Positions 4,655 through 61,375 of a DNA stretch of 64,000 bases are shown piece after piece. The stretch is from Styela clava (Eukaryota > Chordata > Ascidiacea > Stolidobranchia > Styelidae): assembly GCF_964204865.1 (NCBI RefSeq), contig NC_135252.1, forward strand, positions 7,771,383 through 7,835,382. The letters are read 5' to 3'. Below the pieces are notes generated by a model. That model was not told where the DNA came from. It was given only the letters and a program-made list of their open reading frames with translations, and did not search any database. Position numbers and translations under genes: made by a program. Every line of letters begins with the position of its first letter. Within the stretch, counting starts at the first letter, position 1.

Positions 4655-6401
4655 ATGCATATCAAACTCGTTTTAATTTTTGCGTTGATCGCAATCCTTG
4701 CGATAAACTGCGGAGATTCCATTAGATTCAGGCGATTTCGTCTTCGACGAATCGTTAGGAAGGTTGGAAGATTTACAAGAAAAATTGGAAGAGGGTTAAT
4801 ACGAGGCATTAAAAGGGTTGGTAAAATTGGAAGCAAGATCTGGAAGTTTGGGAAAAAAGTGATATCAAACTGGAGGTGTGTTTATTTATCTATTAATACA
4901 AGTAGTTACTTTTTTATTTGTAAAGTAAATTAGTTATTAAAGTATAGAGACAAACTTGTATTGTATACAATCCGCCAATAAACCCATTCCATCCGCCTTA
5001 TATTATTAAAATATCAAGCCATTCCGATGCCTAATAAACAGCATATACAAATAAATATAAAATGGATGTTTATATATTATTTAAATAGCCTAATTGCGAA
5101 ATAATAAATCACTACATTACTAATTGATTAGAGAATCAAAAAAATATCGAGCGACTGTTTCGCTGATCATGTATTAATAATATATTACATTCTATATTTT
5201 ATCAGCGAAGTAAAAAAATTGATCAGTTGCTTCAAAACAGTAAAACGTCTGTTGTCTACCTTTGGAATATTGGGCGATAATCCCGTGCAACAGATGAAAA
5301 TTTTGCGTGACGAGGTAACATTACGATCATTTTAACTCAATTATAAGTTTTATGTGCCTTCGGCAATATTTCGTGTAGAAAATAACACTGCAGAGAAAAA
5401 GGAATCCCGAGTTGACGGTGTACCCATAGTTTTATTGACACAACCGAGTTTCAAATATACGAAACTTGGAAACATTTTTTTATGAAACATTGAGTCACTC
5501 ATAAATTTAAATATGCATTTCCTAATGTTATATCGCACGCTAATAATTCTTAGTCATATTCATTGTCAATATTGACTCCATCATATTTTTGTAATAGAAT
5601 CCTCAAGCATACAGTGACATCATGACTGAAATAGAAAAAGTTGTCCAAGAAGAATATGGAGAGGAAACTGACGAAATGATGAAAGGGTTTGACACAGTCA
5701 TGGAACTAGATATGAGTAAAGTTTTAAAGGATATTCCAAGTTACTCATATATATTTATTTTTTAGTGCTGCTATGGAAAAAGGGTGGTGCATATGCAAAA
5801 CAGCAGCAAAATTAAAATGAGATAACTGGCTAGATGCAACAGGCGACCACAAGCCAGAAGAATAAAATTGAAATGCATAAATATGATGAGCAGGCTAACT
5901 ATCGAAACTGAACACCCGAACCCAAATATTCTCCATAAATCTATAAATGCTGGAATAGCCCAATAAATTTAATATTATTTATATTCCCTACGGAACTACT
6001 TATTGCGTTCTGTAATATTAATATTTCTAGAGAAAGTTTTGTTTGTAGAACAAACTTAAGCCTGAAGTTAATTAATAAGATACCAGGCTCGACACTTTGA
6101 TAAGAATAATAACAGCCTCTATACATACCATTTTCTGGGCGTAGTCACATCGACATAAACACACGATGGAATGTTATGCGTAGCCATAAATCCGAAATAT
6201 AATTAGGCAAAACAATTATAGAAATTACATGCTTTCTTTAATTTGTGGCGCCCAAGTTCAGTCTTTAAACATAGGTACTTCAACATGTTGTCATCTTGTA
6301 TTACAGACGACTTACTCGATCTATCAGACGATCTGGACCAAATGGGAAATGATGAAATTCTCGATGACGAAGACAACGTTGCCATGTTTTTCGAAAATTG
6401 A
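4655..6401 (+). CDS. Cationic antimicrobial-peptide precursor (three coding exons)
   Basis: Coding exons are 4655-4875, 5615-5715 and 6307-6401. Donors are TGGAG|GTGTGT and ATGA|GTAAAG; acceptors are TACAG and TTACAG. Phases 2 and 1 join in frame to 138 residues ending in TGA. Residues 1-22 are a clear signal peptide (hydrophobic LVLIFALIAILAI). Residues 23-74 form a peptide with 13 Arg and 8 Lys and almost no acid, in a regular amphipathic pattern with Trp near the end. Exons 2-3 encode a strongly acidic tail ending in AMFFEN. Signal, cationic peptide and anionic propiece is the known layout of ascidian peptides such as styelins, clavanins and Ci-MAM/Ci-PAP. The expected role is secretion or granule storage, then membrane disruption of microbes after the tail is removed. 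I do not recognise the exact family. A sister copy lies broken at 240-777. Confidence 0.85.
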
Positions 6402-20261: not shown

Positions 20262-21940
20262 GCCTGGGGCGTTTTTGTGTTAACAATATTTTCGAACGTT
20301 CTATAAAATTTCATTAGACATTTTTTACCGGGTCCTTAAAAGGTAATAACCAACGATAAACATTGAATAGTACGCGAAAATTTTGTCACTCATTGGAGAA
20401 GAATGCTTTTGTACAAAGATATTATGGCTATTAAATTTAAATAAACCTCTCAGTCGATTTCATTAGTATATACCGGTATGTATCAATATTTTTGTTTATT
20501 TTGATTTTAGTCAAGTGTTGGAGAATTAAAAGAATGAGTCTGTCTGGTATGAGTTGACGTATTTCACGAAAAACCACTTTGCGCGAATTTTGCCACGAAC
20601 CATATCATTTCATCTTGTATAGTCTTATATCTAATATAACTGTGACTTGACCGGCCGTTGGTTACGGCTTGTACACCAATATGCTCACATGCCCATGCAT
20701 CTGGAACAGTTAATGAACTGGTTATCCGGTGATCCGAACTGAAATGATAACTGAGAGAGAAGCCACAGTTGTCATATTGTTAAGTTGACTTAATACAAAA
20801 GCCGCATTTCACTTACTTACAATTGATATTGATTTAAGAGTTGAATAGAAATATGTACATCTATTTGTCATATATGTACGAGTATATAAACAAGTAATAG
20901 CTATATGTTACGACAATGGGAGTTATAAATAGTAGAAGGATTTACTGAACATTATATTCTTCAACACAGATTTTAATGGACCAATTGGCTGAAGAAAGAA
21001 ACGACATTGCTTAGCATTCGACTACAGGGTACCTCTGCCATCTAACGGTCGAATATACACACTACAAGTTTTACTATCACCACTAGAAGTTTGATGAACT
21101 GGAACATATTTTAACTACCGGTCAGTTATTTATGTTTTCTACCTGAAAGATAAGAATAAAATGTGAAAATCATGGTTCCCAGTGAAAACCTATAGGCTTA
21201 CCACAAGGTTCTTTTCAAGCGGTGATTTCAAATACTACACTATGTAGTTTTCTGTTGAGATTTTATTGTGCTTTCTTTATGGTGGATAGAAAAATGACAT
21301 GATTGGTACATGTATCACAGCAACTGGCCCTCCTAGCTTTGTCATTCAGAATTGAATTGATACCGTATGTTTCTGTTGTGGGGCACGGAAGACACGGAAA
21401 GTCTCGTGGAAATATGTAATGAATATGAAAATTTGTATTTTATATACAGCAATATTTCACACCAGCATTTTTTCCAGTGCGGGCGCAATTTCTTCGCTAT
21501 ATAAACTACACATATTGTTAAATCGTGAGGAAGGTTTGATCTATGCCAACCCTGCACTTTTAATGTAAAGTAGCGTTCTAATTGGAAAATAGTGAACGAT
21601 ATTCCTCATATTAGTCCCATTAAATAATTTAATCCAATAACTGTTTGAAATAATTGCACGGAGCAAAATAGGATTATGGTGCGATTATTCCAAGCAATCA
21701 GATTTACTTAATTTAAGTAATGGATATTCGTAATACTACGAGATATAACATAAATTTGAACATATAGGTTTTATATTTTTAACCCTAAAGCTAGACCCAC
21801 TCTTTCGTCGCATAAAATTGACACTACTAATGAAAGAAGACGCATTTCATTGCAGCGCTAATGGTACAACTTTACCGTTCATCTTTTATTCAGTTTGATT
21901 CGTTGTCATTGATATGGTCACAACTGATAAATTTGTCTGT
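20262..21940. other. Intergenic; no gene seen
   Basis: AT-rich. A TATA-like GTTATAAATAG at 20925-20935 is followed by only a 12-codon frame (ATG at about 20975), so no gene is called. Confidence 0.45.
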
Positions 21941-22196
21941 TATGGAACGTAATTTTGGTGTTTAACTACACATATTTAAAACGAAATAGTCGGCATCTGA
22001 GGTCACAGCGTTACAAATTTGGAGATGTACCGATGTATCGGCAATTTTTCGGTATCGGCTAAATGTATTATGGAACGTAATTTTGGTGTTTAACTGTACA
22101 TATTTAAAACAAAATAGTCGGCATCTGAGGTCACAACGTTACAAATTTGGAGATGTACCGATGTATCGGCAAGTATTCGGTATCGGCTAAATGTAG
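21941..22196. repeat. 128-bp tandem duplication carrying an ATCGG-rich transposon end
   Basis: Two nearly identical units start at 21941 and 22069 (period 128). Each ends in GAGATGTACCGATGTATCGG and TCGGTATCGGCTAAATG. The same GATGTACCGATGTATCGG motif opens the repeat at 32812, so this is a piece of a dispersed transposon family duplicated locally. Confidence 0.85.
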
Positions 22197-24878: not shown

Positions 24879-26558
24879 ATGGTTCGAGAACGTAAAGCGA
24901 GCACCGTTCACATTGGTTGCACTCCGCGCAACTTATCTTTTTCTGGATGTGGTTTTCTTGGAGTTTATCATATTGGCGTCGCCAGCTGCTTCAAACAACA
25001 TGCTCCAGAATTCCTTCAAAATCTGAATAGACTATATGGTTGTTCTGCTGGTTCTATTGTAGGAGCTATGCTTCTATCAGATGTTTGCTGTGGTGAATTG
25101 TGTCGATCCACTTTGGATATAGTCCGTAATGTTCGATCTCGTTACCTTGGTCCACTGAGTCCAGGCTTTAAAGCAAATAGAGTACTTTTAGATGGCCTAA
25201 GAAGAGTTCTGCCTCCGGATGCACACAAAAAATGTGATGGAAGATTATTCATCTCATTGACGAGGGTGCGTGATCGAAAGAATATAATAGTCAGTGAATA
25301 TCCTACTCGAGATTCATTGATTAGTGCATTGCTTTGTAGCTGTTTTGTTCCTTTTTATTCAGGATTCATTCCTCCAATGTACCAAGGTGTGTACTATGTT
25401 GACGGTGGTTTAACTAACAATCTTCCTGCAGGATCAGACACAATCACTGTCTCTCCATGGTCTGGGGGTAGTGATATTTGTCCAAGGGATGATACGGCTA
25501 TATCACTAGTTGACATAAATATTGCAAACACTAGTGTGCAGATGACTGTGCGCAACCTACATAGAGTATCCATTATGTTTTTTCCTCCAGAAGGCGAGAT
25601 TTTGAGTGACTTCTGCAAACAAGGCTTTCGGGAAGCTTTGCGATACTTGAAAGAACATGGTCTGTTCGAAACCATAAATCCCACACTGCGCAGTATGTCG
25701 TTCTCAAATGAGCTTGCCCATGTTGATATGAAACAGGAGCAGAAACATAGACTCTCCATGTCGTCAAAATGGTGTGCATTGAAATCCAATGCATCACTTT
25801 GTCTAAAAGAATTGGAATGGGAAGAAGACGATGTGTGTTCTGGATCATCAGATGAAGATTATTTGACAATGACCGCTGGAACACCTTCAGAAACTTCGTC
25901 ATCTACCTCTGGATGTGCATCTTCTGAATTTGAAATGAGTGATGATGACTGTGATAATAATCATAATCATGAAAACAATATTACTTCATCGGAATTGTAT
26001 AAAGTTCATGTTCACAACTACCCACATCTAAAGTTTCTGCCGGTTGCTGGTGTTGTTCATATGTCATCGATGGAAGACTTTACTTCATTACTACATTTAA
26101 ATTTGCCACATGTTGTGTTGCAGGCACTTGAGGAATCTTATCTTCATAAAAATAGTGGATGGTATTTTCCTATAAACAAAATGTTTTCAATCTGTGGTCG
26201 GCCTTTAGTATTGGCTAAAATGCCACTTGATAAGTCCTACTCTCTGGCCTTGCTTATACTTAAAAATGCGAACTACATACCTCAAAATTTTCAATGGGTA
26301 TTGTGGTACATTTCCACTGTAGTTCACCATGTTCAGGAGCATTTTCAATTGAAAGGTTCAGAGTTAATTACAAAATTGAAGACTACAAAAGACAATTTAT
26401 CTGATGAAGTTAAAGTTTTGGCTTGTCAATTGTGCATTATTATTCAATTAATTCTACAGAAAATTTGTTTTGGTAAAGACCTACCAGATTTATCCTGGGC
26501 ATTGAAGATTGTTGGTGGTGTAAATACAATTTCTAAGTTCTCCAGTTATTTAACATAA
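24879..26558 (+). CDS. Patatin-like phospholipase, ATGL/adiponutrin (PNPLA) type
   Basis: A single uninterrupted 559-residue frame. The patatin domain covers about residues 17-185. It has an oxyanion loop SGCGFLGVYH at 22-31, the nucleophile elbow GCSAG with Ser56, and the catalytic dyad Asp175 in VDGGLTNNLP. VSPWSGGSDICPRD at 191-204 is typical of the PNPLA1-5 branch. This group hydrolyses triacylglycerol or phospholipid at lipid droplets, releasing fatty acids. All catalytic residues are present, so an active lipase is expected. Residues about 305-370 are an acidic, Ser/Asp-rich low-complexity insert, making it longer than ATGL (504 residues). The C-terminus contains helical and hydrophobic segments (LVLAKMPLDKSYSLALLIL) that may bind droplets. 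Vertebrate relatives have many introns; none is seen here, so an old retrocopy is possible, but the frame is intact. The ATG follows an AT-rich leader (AAAAAATATGG). I leave the symbol blank because orthology is undecided. Confidence 0.95.
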   Translation: MVRERKASTVHIGCTPRNLSFSGCGFLGVYHIGVASCFKQHAPEFLQNLNRLYGCSAGSIVGAMLLSDVCCGELCRSTLDIVRNVRSRYLGPLSPGFKANRVLLDGLRRVLPPDAHKKCDGRLFISLTRVRDRKNIIVSEYPTRDSLISALLCSCFVPFYSGFIPPMYQGVYYVDGGLTNNLPAGSDTITVSPWSGGSDICPRDDTAISLVDINIANTSVQMTVRNLHRVSIMFFPPEGEILSDFCKQGFREALRYLKEHGLFETINPTLRSMSFSNELAHVDMKQEQKHRLSMSSKWCALKSNASLCLKELEWEEDDVCSGSSDEDYLTMTAGTPSETSSSTSGCASSEFEMSDDDCDNNHNHENNITSSELYKVHVHNYPHLKFLPVAGVVHMSSMEDFTSLLHLNLPHVVLQALEESYLHKNSGWYFPINKMFSICGRPLVLAKMPLDKSYSLALLILKNANYIPQNFQWVLWYISTVVHHVQEHFQLKGSELITKLKTTKDNLSDEVKVLACQLCIIIQLILQKICFGKDLPDLSWALKIVGGVNTISKFSSYLT

Positions 26559-40130: not shown

Positions 40131-40317
40131 ATCATTAAATTGAATTGTCTGCTTTCGAATTGTATAATTTTGTCGTAATTGCATTCACTTATCAAGCAAA
40201 AAAATGGAACCAGACGACGCACTCTGATGGTTACCCACAGCTATGTCTTTAGAAGATAACAAACATAAATGCATGTAAGGTTTTTCTAACCGACAAAGAC
40301 ACCGAGTTGAACTTCCA

Positions 40318-40326
40318 TAATAAAAA
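40318..40326 (+). promoter_or_regulatory. TATA-like element before the helical-cytokine candidate
   Basis: TAATAAAAA lies 41 nt before the ATG at 40367, compatible with a very short 5' UTR. The evidence is positional only. Confidence 0.35.
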
Positions 40327-40366
40327 GGCATGTAAGTCGGTAACTCCGTTTTAGTTGTGAAACCCA

Positions 40367-43022
40367 ATGTTTGCTATGTTGCGACATCTTATCGGTAAGC
40401 TGAGGTTATAATAGCATTCTGTTATACAAAAAATCACTGTGACAATATTACTTGACTTGTTTCGATTATTTTCAGGCTGCGCAGTTATTGGAATTCTTTG
40501 TACAAGTAAGAAAATCGGCGGTGATCCAATTAAATCAAGATTTGATGATGAAACTTTTCCTCGAAATAGCAATATCTGCAAACCGTTGTTCAAAGAACCG
40601 AAGTGCCTGGCAAGTTTCCAACAATGTGATAAATCCTTGAACTTGCAGCAATCGATTTTATCATCGCAATTGACATTGGTAAGCATCAATTACAATTTAT
40701 GCAATGTGCGACTACAATACCAGGATATCACCACATACTTATTTGTTAAATAATAATCTTCAAATCAAGATAATCAAAGTGTGCTTTTATGCGTAAATAA
40801 TAACAGATTGTTCATACTATTTTGATCGTTGTAAAATATTAAAATGTTGCGTCTCAGATTAGTATAACTTTTCACATAGAGATAATTAAAATGCAAATTG
40901 GGTAAGGTCTGCCAACAATGCGTCTGCAAAAAAGTTGTTCATCATTATATTAAGAGTCTAAGTGAACGAAATAACGATTCAGAACCCTCAACAGAGGTCT
41001 TTTTTTCAATATTATATAAAAAAAAAATGGGGTTCTACCGAGAATCATAATTATAAAAATGTATACAATGAACTTGGCAAAGCTAAAAGTTTAAATCCAC
41101 GGCAAAACGTCTCATGATTTTGTTACAACTACTGCAACACTGTCTGATAGACAAATAAAAAATATTATTTTCAGGTGAAACATGGCGGGATCTGGGAACA
41201 AAGGAGTTATCACGGCGTGAGTGTTATGTTTAATCACCTTTTGCCATGAATTTACTTGTTTTGTTTATAAATGACTAGAATGAGTATGTTCCAATTTCAG
41301 ACGGACTCGATTATTTCTGGAATCGAATATTCCAGCCTTACAGCTATTAAAATTTTTACTAAACGAATATTTTAAAGGCGAAACCATGAACTACTAAATA
41401 TGTCATATAGTCAAAATATATTGCTATGTATGTGCATTTCGCTGTTTTTTCTCTTCGCCGTCGGCGCTAGCTTTATTTTTTTTAAGGCATAGTCTCAATC
41501 TCAATACGAGATATGAACATCAGTCTCCCACAAAGCGCAATTGACGGGGCGATAGAGACCTTTACCTAATATTTCCTTACAATCCAAAGTACCGTTGCAT
41601 GGAAGATTAGATAAACATAAATGCTCATCTTTAATGGTATTTAAATTATAATCTTAATAAACACTCAAATGGTTGCTATTTCGAAGTCGACCCAAAAGCC
41701 CGAAGCGACATAACCCGATGGTTAAATTATTACCATAAAACAGCGAACAAACGTTTGAATATAATACGCAACAACATTTAATATTTGGTTTCTGAGCGGC
41801 AAGACGCGTAATTTTTCTTCTGAGATGTAATTTCGTTTATTCCATTATTCGAGTTGATGGCTACGGATAAACAAATCTCAAACTAATTACCGATTTCGAT
41901 ATTTTTTCAGAGAAAATTGCCAAGAAGAATGGTTCAATTACCATTCATGTTTCACAGATATCGAGAAATGCTCTCTATTGCGCAAAATTATTTGGTTACG
42001 ACAGCAAAAGTTGAATTGAACACAAGCTACACTGCAATAAGAGCAAATTTATTTTCTCTTTGTTCGGCAATGCATCTTAAGCGTCACATTCAAAACAGAA
42101 AAGTCGAATTTGACGAGGGAAATAACAATGTGAGTGCACTCTATTTTAGCAGTGAAGTTATTAGGTCATTATATTGATTGTTTTGGCTAATTTTGTGCTT
42201 GCATTCAGCATAAAATTTCTAGAAGTCAACAACGAGACATATCTATTTCACAAAGTGTATTTTAATGAAATATGTCACGGACCTATATTTTATTGAGCAA
42301 CTCAAATAATTTTGTCAAATAACTCAATAATATTTTGAAAAGTGATAATGATAAAAAATAATCACGAATCTAATACCAAACTATTTCAGACCAATGCTTT
42401 TCTATTCGATATCCTTGATGACGAATCTTTCAGAATCTGGAAAAAGAGAATGGGACGTTTATATAACCGTCACTCTCGCAAGGTAAAATCTTTAGAATAA
42501 ATGTAGGAAAGTAAACGTTAATATCTCCAACGTTTTCTACTTCAAATTTTATTTGTATAACGAACATCTATTGGATGCAAAATTTCCCTCGGAAGTACAT
42601 AAGTAGTTCATAGTTCTATGTTAAATTCAATTTAGAAAGTTCACGTTTTGTTGAGATATATGAATATACCCGATCAACGAATATCGAATACGTACCCCCT
42701 ACGTTTGTTTGAATACTAAAATTTAAGTTAATGACAAAACATCGTTTTCAACCTTGACCTGAATTCGCATATCCAATTGCTATTTCTACTTATTGCTTCA
42801 AGGCATTTTATTTTTTAAAGACAGTTTTAATACAAAAATTCAAAAACATATAATTCCCTGCTTATTTTATTTTTTTTATTTACACAGCAACATCACCATT
42901 GGTTTCTTGCGGAGATGCTGTTTCACATAAAAGCTTTGATTGAAAAATATCAATTCCTGCATCGCGTGAATTCATGTTCTGTGACCTCACTCAGTATGTC
43001 AGACGAGACTTTCATGTTTTAA
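40367..43022 (+). CDS. Candidate long-chain class I helical cytokine (six exons, 239 aa, secreted)
   Basis: Exons 40367-40394, 40476-40678, 41175-41216, 41911-42129, 42390-42482 and 42888-43022 total 720 nt and join without a stop. Donors are ATCG|GTAAGC, TTG|GTAAGC, GGC|GTGAGT, AAT|GTGAGT and AAG|GTAAAA. Every acceptor ends in CAG behind pyrimidines. Intron 1 is phase 1 and splits the signal peptide (MFAMLRHLIGCAVIGILC); all others are phase 0. Mature cysteines are 44, 53, 60, 142 and 225, and a sequon is at Asn128. Likely helices: A about 44-77, B 98-122, C 129-150, a further one in exon 5, and D 199-222 (WFLAEMLFHIKALIEKYQF). Vertebrate GH/EPO/IL-6-type cytokines have a similar size, a first intron in the signal peptide, and phase-0 introns afterwards. 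I see no diagnostic sequence motif, so function is inference. Another secreted helical protein is possible. An alternative 3' exon may start at 41311. Confidence 0.75.
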
Positions 43023-60506: not shown

Positions 60507-61375
60507 TTGGGGTGGGCAACGTTTCTAGTCGGCGGGCCAGATGTGGGAAAATGAGGTCCTCGGTGGGCCGGATTATTACATGGATAGTATTCAATATCTT
60601 AATCACATATTTATTCGCTAATGCAAGAAAAAAAATTATAAATCGCGTTTAAAGTAAAGTTTAAACTTTGAAAAAAATAGAGACCAAAAAACACATAATG
60701 AATTTATCATAATGTACTAAAATTGTACTTCAATAGCTTCTAAATTCAGTGAGACATTTGTGGTCAATCAAAGTTGTCAACAAGTTGTTTAAACTCAGGC
60801 TTGTTTAGAGTTTGATGTAGAAATTTTAAGTAAAGAATGCAGGTTAACATCAGTTAGATTGGAACGTAGCTTGGTCTTGTTCATGTTCAAGGTCGAAAAT
60901 GTTTGTTCACAAATGTATGTGGACCCAAACAGAACGAGTAGTTTCATGGCCAGTTCTAGCTGCACAGTATCCGGCGCTCTTTCAACGTGATGACAGAATA
61001 TCAAATTCAGCAGCAAGTTTTTGAAAGTCCGCAAAACAACGACCAAATTCATTATCCAGTGCGTATATCATATTAGTGTACTTTTCAGTTGACATCATTG
61101 GTTGTGCCGCAGTTGCAAGTGTTGCAAAGTGTGTTGTGATATTCTGTGTGAGATGGCGAGAAAACAGTTTTAGCTTCACTCTAAATTGTCTAAATGCCCT
61201 CACTGTTGTGTACATTTCGTGAGTAAAAGTGCCCCTCCCTCGAAGTTTGGTGTTCAGTTCATTCATATGTTCAAAAATGTGCGGGGAGAGTAGAACGACC
61301 GGCAACTTTCAGGAATGATGCGTCGGCCCACATTACAGAGTGAGTTGGATACAGTCAGCGGGCCGGTCAGAAAAA
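60507..61375 (-). pseudogene. Decayed hAT transposase (C-terminal and dimerisation region)
   Basis: Two minus-strand frames, 61305-60982 and 61052-60795, continue one another across a frameshift near 61000-61050. The second contains LELAMKLLVLFGSTYICEQT and then FSTLNMNKTKLRSNLTD. That matches the C-terminal hAT dimerisation region of ZBED5/GTF2IRD2-like transposases (F-x-S-T-Y-x-C-E-x-x-F-S-x-M-x-x-x-K-x-x-x-R-x-x-L). The upstream frame matches the preceding helical region. The N-terminal zinc finger and most of the catalytic domain are absent. GC-rich CGGGCCAGA and GCGGGCCGGTCAG motifs near 60533 and 61358 mark hAT subterminal sequence. Confidence 0.8.

Follow-up and report, generated by a model that had tools for sequence, protein, structure and literature searches.

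Three related genes for putative helical cytokines in the genome of the ascidian Styela clava

A six-exon gene in a 64,000-nucleotide stretch of the Styela clava genome (the window; contig NC_135252.1, positions 7,771,383 to 7,835,382, forward strand) proves genuine; it encodes a small, probably secreted protein and is one of three related copies, which we call A (the window gene), B and C. Because gene A is real, belongs to a family of three and shares its genome with receptors of the IL-6 type, its product may be a long-missing sea-squirt signalling protein. The way the gene is laid out, the size and probable secretion of its product and the presence of the receptors together lead us to favour a four-helix cytokine, and we give a chance just short of even to the reading that A encodes a fast-evolving, secreted class I helical cytokine of the long-chain type.

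Gene A lies on the plus strand, and splicing of its six exons from the window DNA yields 239 residues followed by a stop codon. Exon 1 (40367..40394) carries the start of what is presumably a signal peptide and ends in phase 1; exon 2 (40476..40678) completes that peptide and adds cysteines 44, 53 and 60 and a putative helix A at about residues 53-78 that is weakly supported by periodicity. The 14 codons of exon 3 (41175..41216) would form an A-B loop, and exon 4 (41911..42129) encodes cysteine 142 and would supply helix B, a short link and helix C. Exon 5 (42390..42482) covers a putative C-D loop in which W181-K182 is identical in genes A, B and C, and exon 6 (42888..43022, stop included) contains cysteine 225 and a putative helix D, QHHHWFLAEMLFHIKALIEKYQFL. 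A TATA-like element, ATAATAAAAAGGC, is found on the same strand at 40317..40329, 38-50 bp 5' of the ATG; it resembles the consensus, which by itself says nothing about function. We consider it very improbable that this gene model is wrong or that the gene is dead: its exons were drawn by eye in the initial annotation, but all five introns have GT-AG borders, the layout is repeated in two paralogues with open frames, and dN/dS between those two paralogues is below 1. Our re-splicing likewise reproduced the six-exon, in-frame gene of 239 residues described there, and the intron phases reported for it (1 for the first intron and 0 for introns 2-5) were recovered both in A and in the paralogues of the same genome.

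The paralogues were found in a search of the 376.6 Mb assembly (379 contigs), in which only the best candidates were scored. With protein A as the query, 11 places were returned, five of them on contig C3, representing gene A itself, and six on C1 (E 6.0e-6, 9.5e-6, 8.7e-5, 1.3e-4, 0.0148 and 0.0378); exon 6 of A gave the lowest E-values of all exons against the paralogues. The six places on C1 rebuild into two genes of six exons each, B (C1:20727995-20723007, minus strand, 241 aa) and C (C1:20746128-20749832, plus strand, 260 aa), which stand head to head with 18 kb between them. All three genes have the phases 1,0,0,0,0 and a very short third exon (42 nt in A and C, 45 nt in B). Introns 2, 3 and 5 occupy identical alignment columns in A, B and C, and introns 1 and 4 of A are offset by three columns from those of B and C. 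Protein A shares about 33% identity with each of the others (77/236 with B and 78/237 with C), and B and C are identical at 195/240 positions. The five mature cysteines are among the 70 of 236 ungapped columns that are identical in all three proteins. Gaps fall at residues 17, 81, 92, 151 and 186 and at the C-terminus of A, and are absent within residues 53-78, 93-146 and 196-228. For the B-C pair, which is the only one to which these figures apply because dS is not computable against A, the NG86 method gave dN 0.090, dS 0.326 and dN/dS 0.27, and YN00 gave dN 0.092, dS 0.292 and dN/dS 0.31. Judged from these sequence comparisons, the family changes fast but under constraint.

Searching the genome with gene C returned 15 places, 12 of which are exons of A, B and C, and gave no sure addition to the family, though a distant member could be missed by searches that score best candidates only. 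The remaining three places (one on C16 and two on C14; E 0.18 to 2.38) are interrupted by stops and were judged to be repeats or random matches. Among the viral contigs, 82 stretches fit a peptide pattern and none of them encodes a relative.

The N-terminus of protein A is hydrophobic, with a maximum 19-residue Kyte-Doolittle mean of 1.85 compared with a maximum of 0.81 elsewhere in the protein, in agreement with the signal peptide proposed in the initial annotation, which is thus likely, and with its claim that no other hydrophobic segment is present. By hydropathy and inspection, all three proteins have such an N-terminus and no second comparable segment, and they are probably small secreted proteins that lack a transmembrane segment. 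Past residue 20, protein A has cysteines at positions 44, 53, 60, 142 and 225, an odd number that equals the five previously counted. The single sequon reported for it needs correction, as there are two, at residue 128 (NTS) and at residue 163 (NNT), the latter spanning the junction of exons 4 and 5. The several amphipathic helices that had been described were recovered in part. A helical peak was present in 12 of 100 overlapping 20-residue windows (uncorrected p<0.05), a modest periodicity, and the putative helix A is the weak element, its region having 41-60 as the sole flagged window. The putative links would be about 14 residues between A and B, a few between B and C, and about 40 between C and D. 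Prolines 95 and 102 of A fall where helix B would start.

Searches for a known family returned little. At E up to 10, Pfam gave no match to A or B and only ARM_CPL3 (E 0.3) to C, and at the same threshold, with HMMER filters that drop most weak matches, the named Pfam cytokine families matched none of the three members. With these profiles unmatched, we assign A, B and C to no named Pfam cytokine family. Neither a phmmer search of the PDB with A nor a profile search of the PDB yielded a cytokine. The one phmmer match was a lysozyme-fused GPCR (E 1.5) and the profile search returned four dynein chains (best E 0.037), all of which we take as chance. A genome search for the PRF family found a single weak match (E 0.417), in what looks on inspection like a glutathione-transferase-like gene. 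The lack of resemblance to any known family in Pfam or the PDB speaks for the main competing explanation, namely that A is a lineage-specific secreted helical protein stabilised by disulphides, such as a haemolymph, gamete or defence protein, and not a receptor-binding cytokine. Small paralogue groups are usual for lineage-specific secreted proteins, which the present group fits, and the window also holds apparent antimicrobial peptide genes. We give this explanation an appreciable chance, below even.

In GH, PRL, EPO and IL-6 genes, the intron phases are 1,0,0,0, and successive exons encode the start of the signal peptide, helix A, the A-B loop, helices B and C, and helix D. All three Styela genes likewise have a phase-1 intron within the presumed signal peptide and only phase-0 introns after it, with a fourth phase-0 intron that is extra to this pattern. 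We also count in favour of a long-chain class I cytokine the protein sizes (239, 241 and 260 aa), the conservation of five mature cysteines in all three members, the tiny exon 3 set between longer exons, and the stretch from residue 11 to residue 228 of B and C that is free of proline. We add to these the lack of a second hydrophobic segment in all three proteins, the identical columns of introns 2, 3 and 5, the ungapped alignment within residues 53-78, 93-146 and 196-228, and the fast but constrained change. Against it we count the prolines at 95 and 102 of A, the odd number of mature cysteines, the modest periodicity and the weakness of helix A; in addition, long-chain cytokines have longer A-B loops than the putative one here, at about 14 residues, and their genes have no counterpart of intron 5. 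As to what intron phase says about a lineage-specific protein, phase-1 introns near signal peptides are described as common in secreted proteins generally in the available part of one article (PMC1626468), so that intron 1 agrees with this explanation too. The same partial text also refers to an assertion that the excess of phase 1 in secreted proteins extends over the full length of the sequence, in which case four phase-0 introns would be less expected (PMC1626468). Those four introns and the tiny exon 3 instead fit the long-chain cytokine layout in each of the three genes, and the presence of receptor loci in the genome also argues against a protein with no receptor to bind.

The proteins might alternatively be four-helix ligands of another receptor class, either of the CSF1, IL-34 or SCF kind that binds receptor tyrosine kinases or a class II cytokine resembling IL-10 or the interferons, but we consider this unlikely. 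CSF1-type ligands have the same bundle topology and place the A-B loop, helix B with helix C, and helix D on separate exons, an exon split similar to the one proposed here, and the helix pattern of A separates none of these classes. The early phase-1 intron, however, is unlike the genes of the IL-10 family, which lack it, and the size of A is closer to that of long-chain class I members. None of the CSF1, IL-34, SCF or class II families in Pfam was matched. Although CSF1, IL-34 and SCF resemble A, B and C as proposed in being secreted four-helix ligands with a similar mapping of exons to helices, they differ in acting via receptor tyrosine kinases and in having Pfam profiles to which the Styela proteins show no match.

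A long-chain class I ligand would call for a class I receptor, and the genome contains one. The IL6Ra-bind profile gave a weak match (E 0.34) that drew attention to a gene spanning roughly C14:7847.7-7857.1 kb, whose exons by eye encode a signal peptide and Ig-like parts, a CxW exon, the motif SSEWS, fn3-type parts, and a membrane segment followed by IWPSVPRPN. We take SSEWS to be a degenerate WSxWS variant and IWPSVPRPN to be a Box 1 motif. When ten exon pieces of this gene were compared with Pfam, five had no match, two had unrelated weak matches, one passed the curated cut-off (fn3, 25.9 vs 25, E 1.2e-5), one had sub-threshold Ig matches, and the CxW exon had four matches, all to class I receptor families and all under the cut-off. 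The best PDB match to four joined pieces was human gp130 (E 1.6e-7), in an alignment that stops before the SSEWS part, and the 45 PDB sequences found at E up to 1 are, by name, gp130 and the receptors for IL-12, leptin, prolactin, IL-13, IL-23, G-CSF and LIF. On the strength of its encoded features, which include a cytokine-receptor homology region, WSxWS (as SSEWS) and a membrane segment with Box 1, this gene encodes a class I cytokine receptor of the gp130 type. At a second locus, C14:19791-19799 kb, a search for membrane segments with Box 1 found a membrane exon with FWPTIPEPR (Box 1; E 3.4e-4), and an exon with WSSWS lies about 7 kb upstream (best Pfam match fn3, E 0.0064, under the cut-off). 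We infer that the two exons belong to one gene, and the locus probably holds parts of a second class I receptor. The class I receptors that the initial annotation mentions as reported in ascidians are represented here by a gp130-type gene and by parts of a probable second receptor.

Several other places were examined and set aside. No receptor feature was seen at the second IL6Ra-bind place (E 9.09), which has a DnaJ-like exon about 3 kb further on, or at the one weak place on C2 found with EpoR_lig-bind (E 0.389), a score of a kind that arises by chance, since the same search gives matches in 2 of 14 prokaryote controls. The third place found in the membrane and Box 1 search, on C16 (E 0.031), contains a stop and was not accepted as a receptor.

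According to the accessible part of one report, Ciona has two class I receptors, one gp130-like and one CLF-3-like (PMC1963337). With a gp130-type receptor and a locus combining WSSWS and Box 1 in the Styela genome, a ligand is to be expected, and the link between gene A and these receptor loci is their co-presence in one genome alone. If protein A is that ligand, it would be secreted and then fold as a four-helix bundle, with helix A encoded by exon 2, helices B and C by exon 4 and helix D by exon 6. The folded protein would bridge two gp130-type receptor chains and trigger JAK-STAT signalling via the Box 1 of the receptor. Cytokines of the gp130 group have a receptor contact known as 'site III', and by analogy we would guess that the conserved [FY]xxWK ahead of helix D touches the receptor.

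Among vertebrate proteins, the gp130 family (IL-6, LIF, CNTF and CLCF1) offers a close parallel in that its members are secreted, have about 200 residues, and are encoded by genes in which a phase-1 intron splits the signal peptide and the later introns are phase 0, and a gp130-type receptor is present in the same genome as A. Gene A differs in having no detectable sequence similarity to them and an extra intron before the putative helix D. The GH, PRL and EPO group is comparable in its 1,0,0,0 layout with a separate exon for the A-B loop; A shows no sequence similarity to this group either, its exon 3 measures just 42 nt, and the receptor found here is closest to gp130. Among invertebrates, the amphioxus GHl, described in the available text of a 2022 review as a divergent 208-residue molecule and putative class I cytokine (PMC9010856), is like A an invertebrate-chordate class I candidate, although it comes from another lineage and is likened here by description only. 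The same portion of that review states that no class I cytokine of this kind was detected in urochordates (PMC9010856). The Unpaired proteins of Drosophila are secreted invertebrate ligands of the gp130-like receptor Domeless, and IL-6 itself is reported in vertebrates only, according to the part of the source available (PMC13203501). The Unpaired proteins thus share with A, by description only, the role of ligand for a gp130-like receptor, and differ in being arthropod proteins. Claims of IL-6-like proteins in invertebrates already exist, as one has been reported from the sea star Asterias forbesi in an article available in part (PMC8226699).

No tunicate class I cytokine was found among the open-access matches listed, judged by titles and abstract openings, a set that leaves most subscription journals and bioRxiv outside, so that an earlier description is possible. 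We tentatively propose, with somewhat less than an even chance of being right, that A, B and C are the first family of class I helical cytokines from a tunicate, that they are fast-evolving ligands of gp130-type receptors, and that both the layout of long-chain cytokine genes and the ligands of gp130 signalling predate the split between tunicates and vertebrates. If so, the ligand-receptor pair would date to before the vertebrates, and three candidate ligands together with two receptor loci in one genome make for a concrete test.

The window has other contents as well. A probable antimicrobial-peptide-like gene, identified by eye on the plus strand at 4655 to about 4875, 5646-5714 and 6306-6395, begins with a signal peptide and a strongly cationic exon and continues with acidic exons; the cationic exon has no Pfam match. 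Two acidic exons at 270-365 and 682-771 on the same strand, 78% and 73% identical, suggest a second copy and a probable tandem pair. A long uninterrupted reading frame at 24879-26558 (plus strand) encodes a patatin-like phospholipase domain (Pfam, E 2e-22), and a 128-base unit is present in two tandem copies at 21940-22195 with 95% matches. Reading frames at 60795-61308 (minus strand) resemble a fragment of a hAT-type transposase by eye, and the piece at 60985-61308 has no Pfam match. Elsewhere in the genome, the search encountered a GH6 (cellulase-type) exon at C9:16179895-16180164 (E 1.5e-6 in the genome search and 9.9e-11 for the reading frame against Pfam), next to a reading frame rich in hydrophobic segments. 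To our knowledge, GH6 is found among animals in tunicates only, and its presence, together with the gp130-type receptor, fits a tunicate host; this exon may be part of a tunicate cellulose-synthesis gene.
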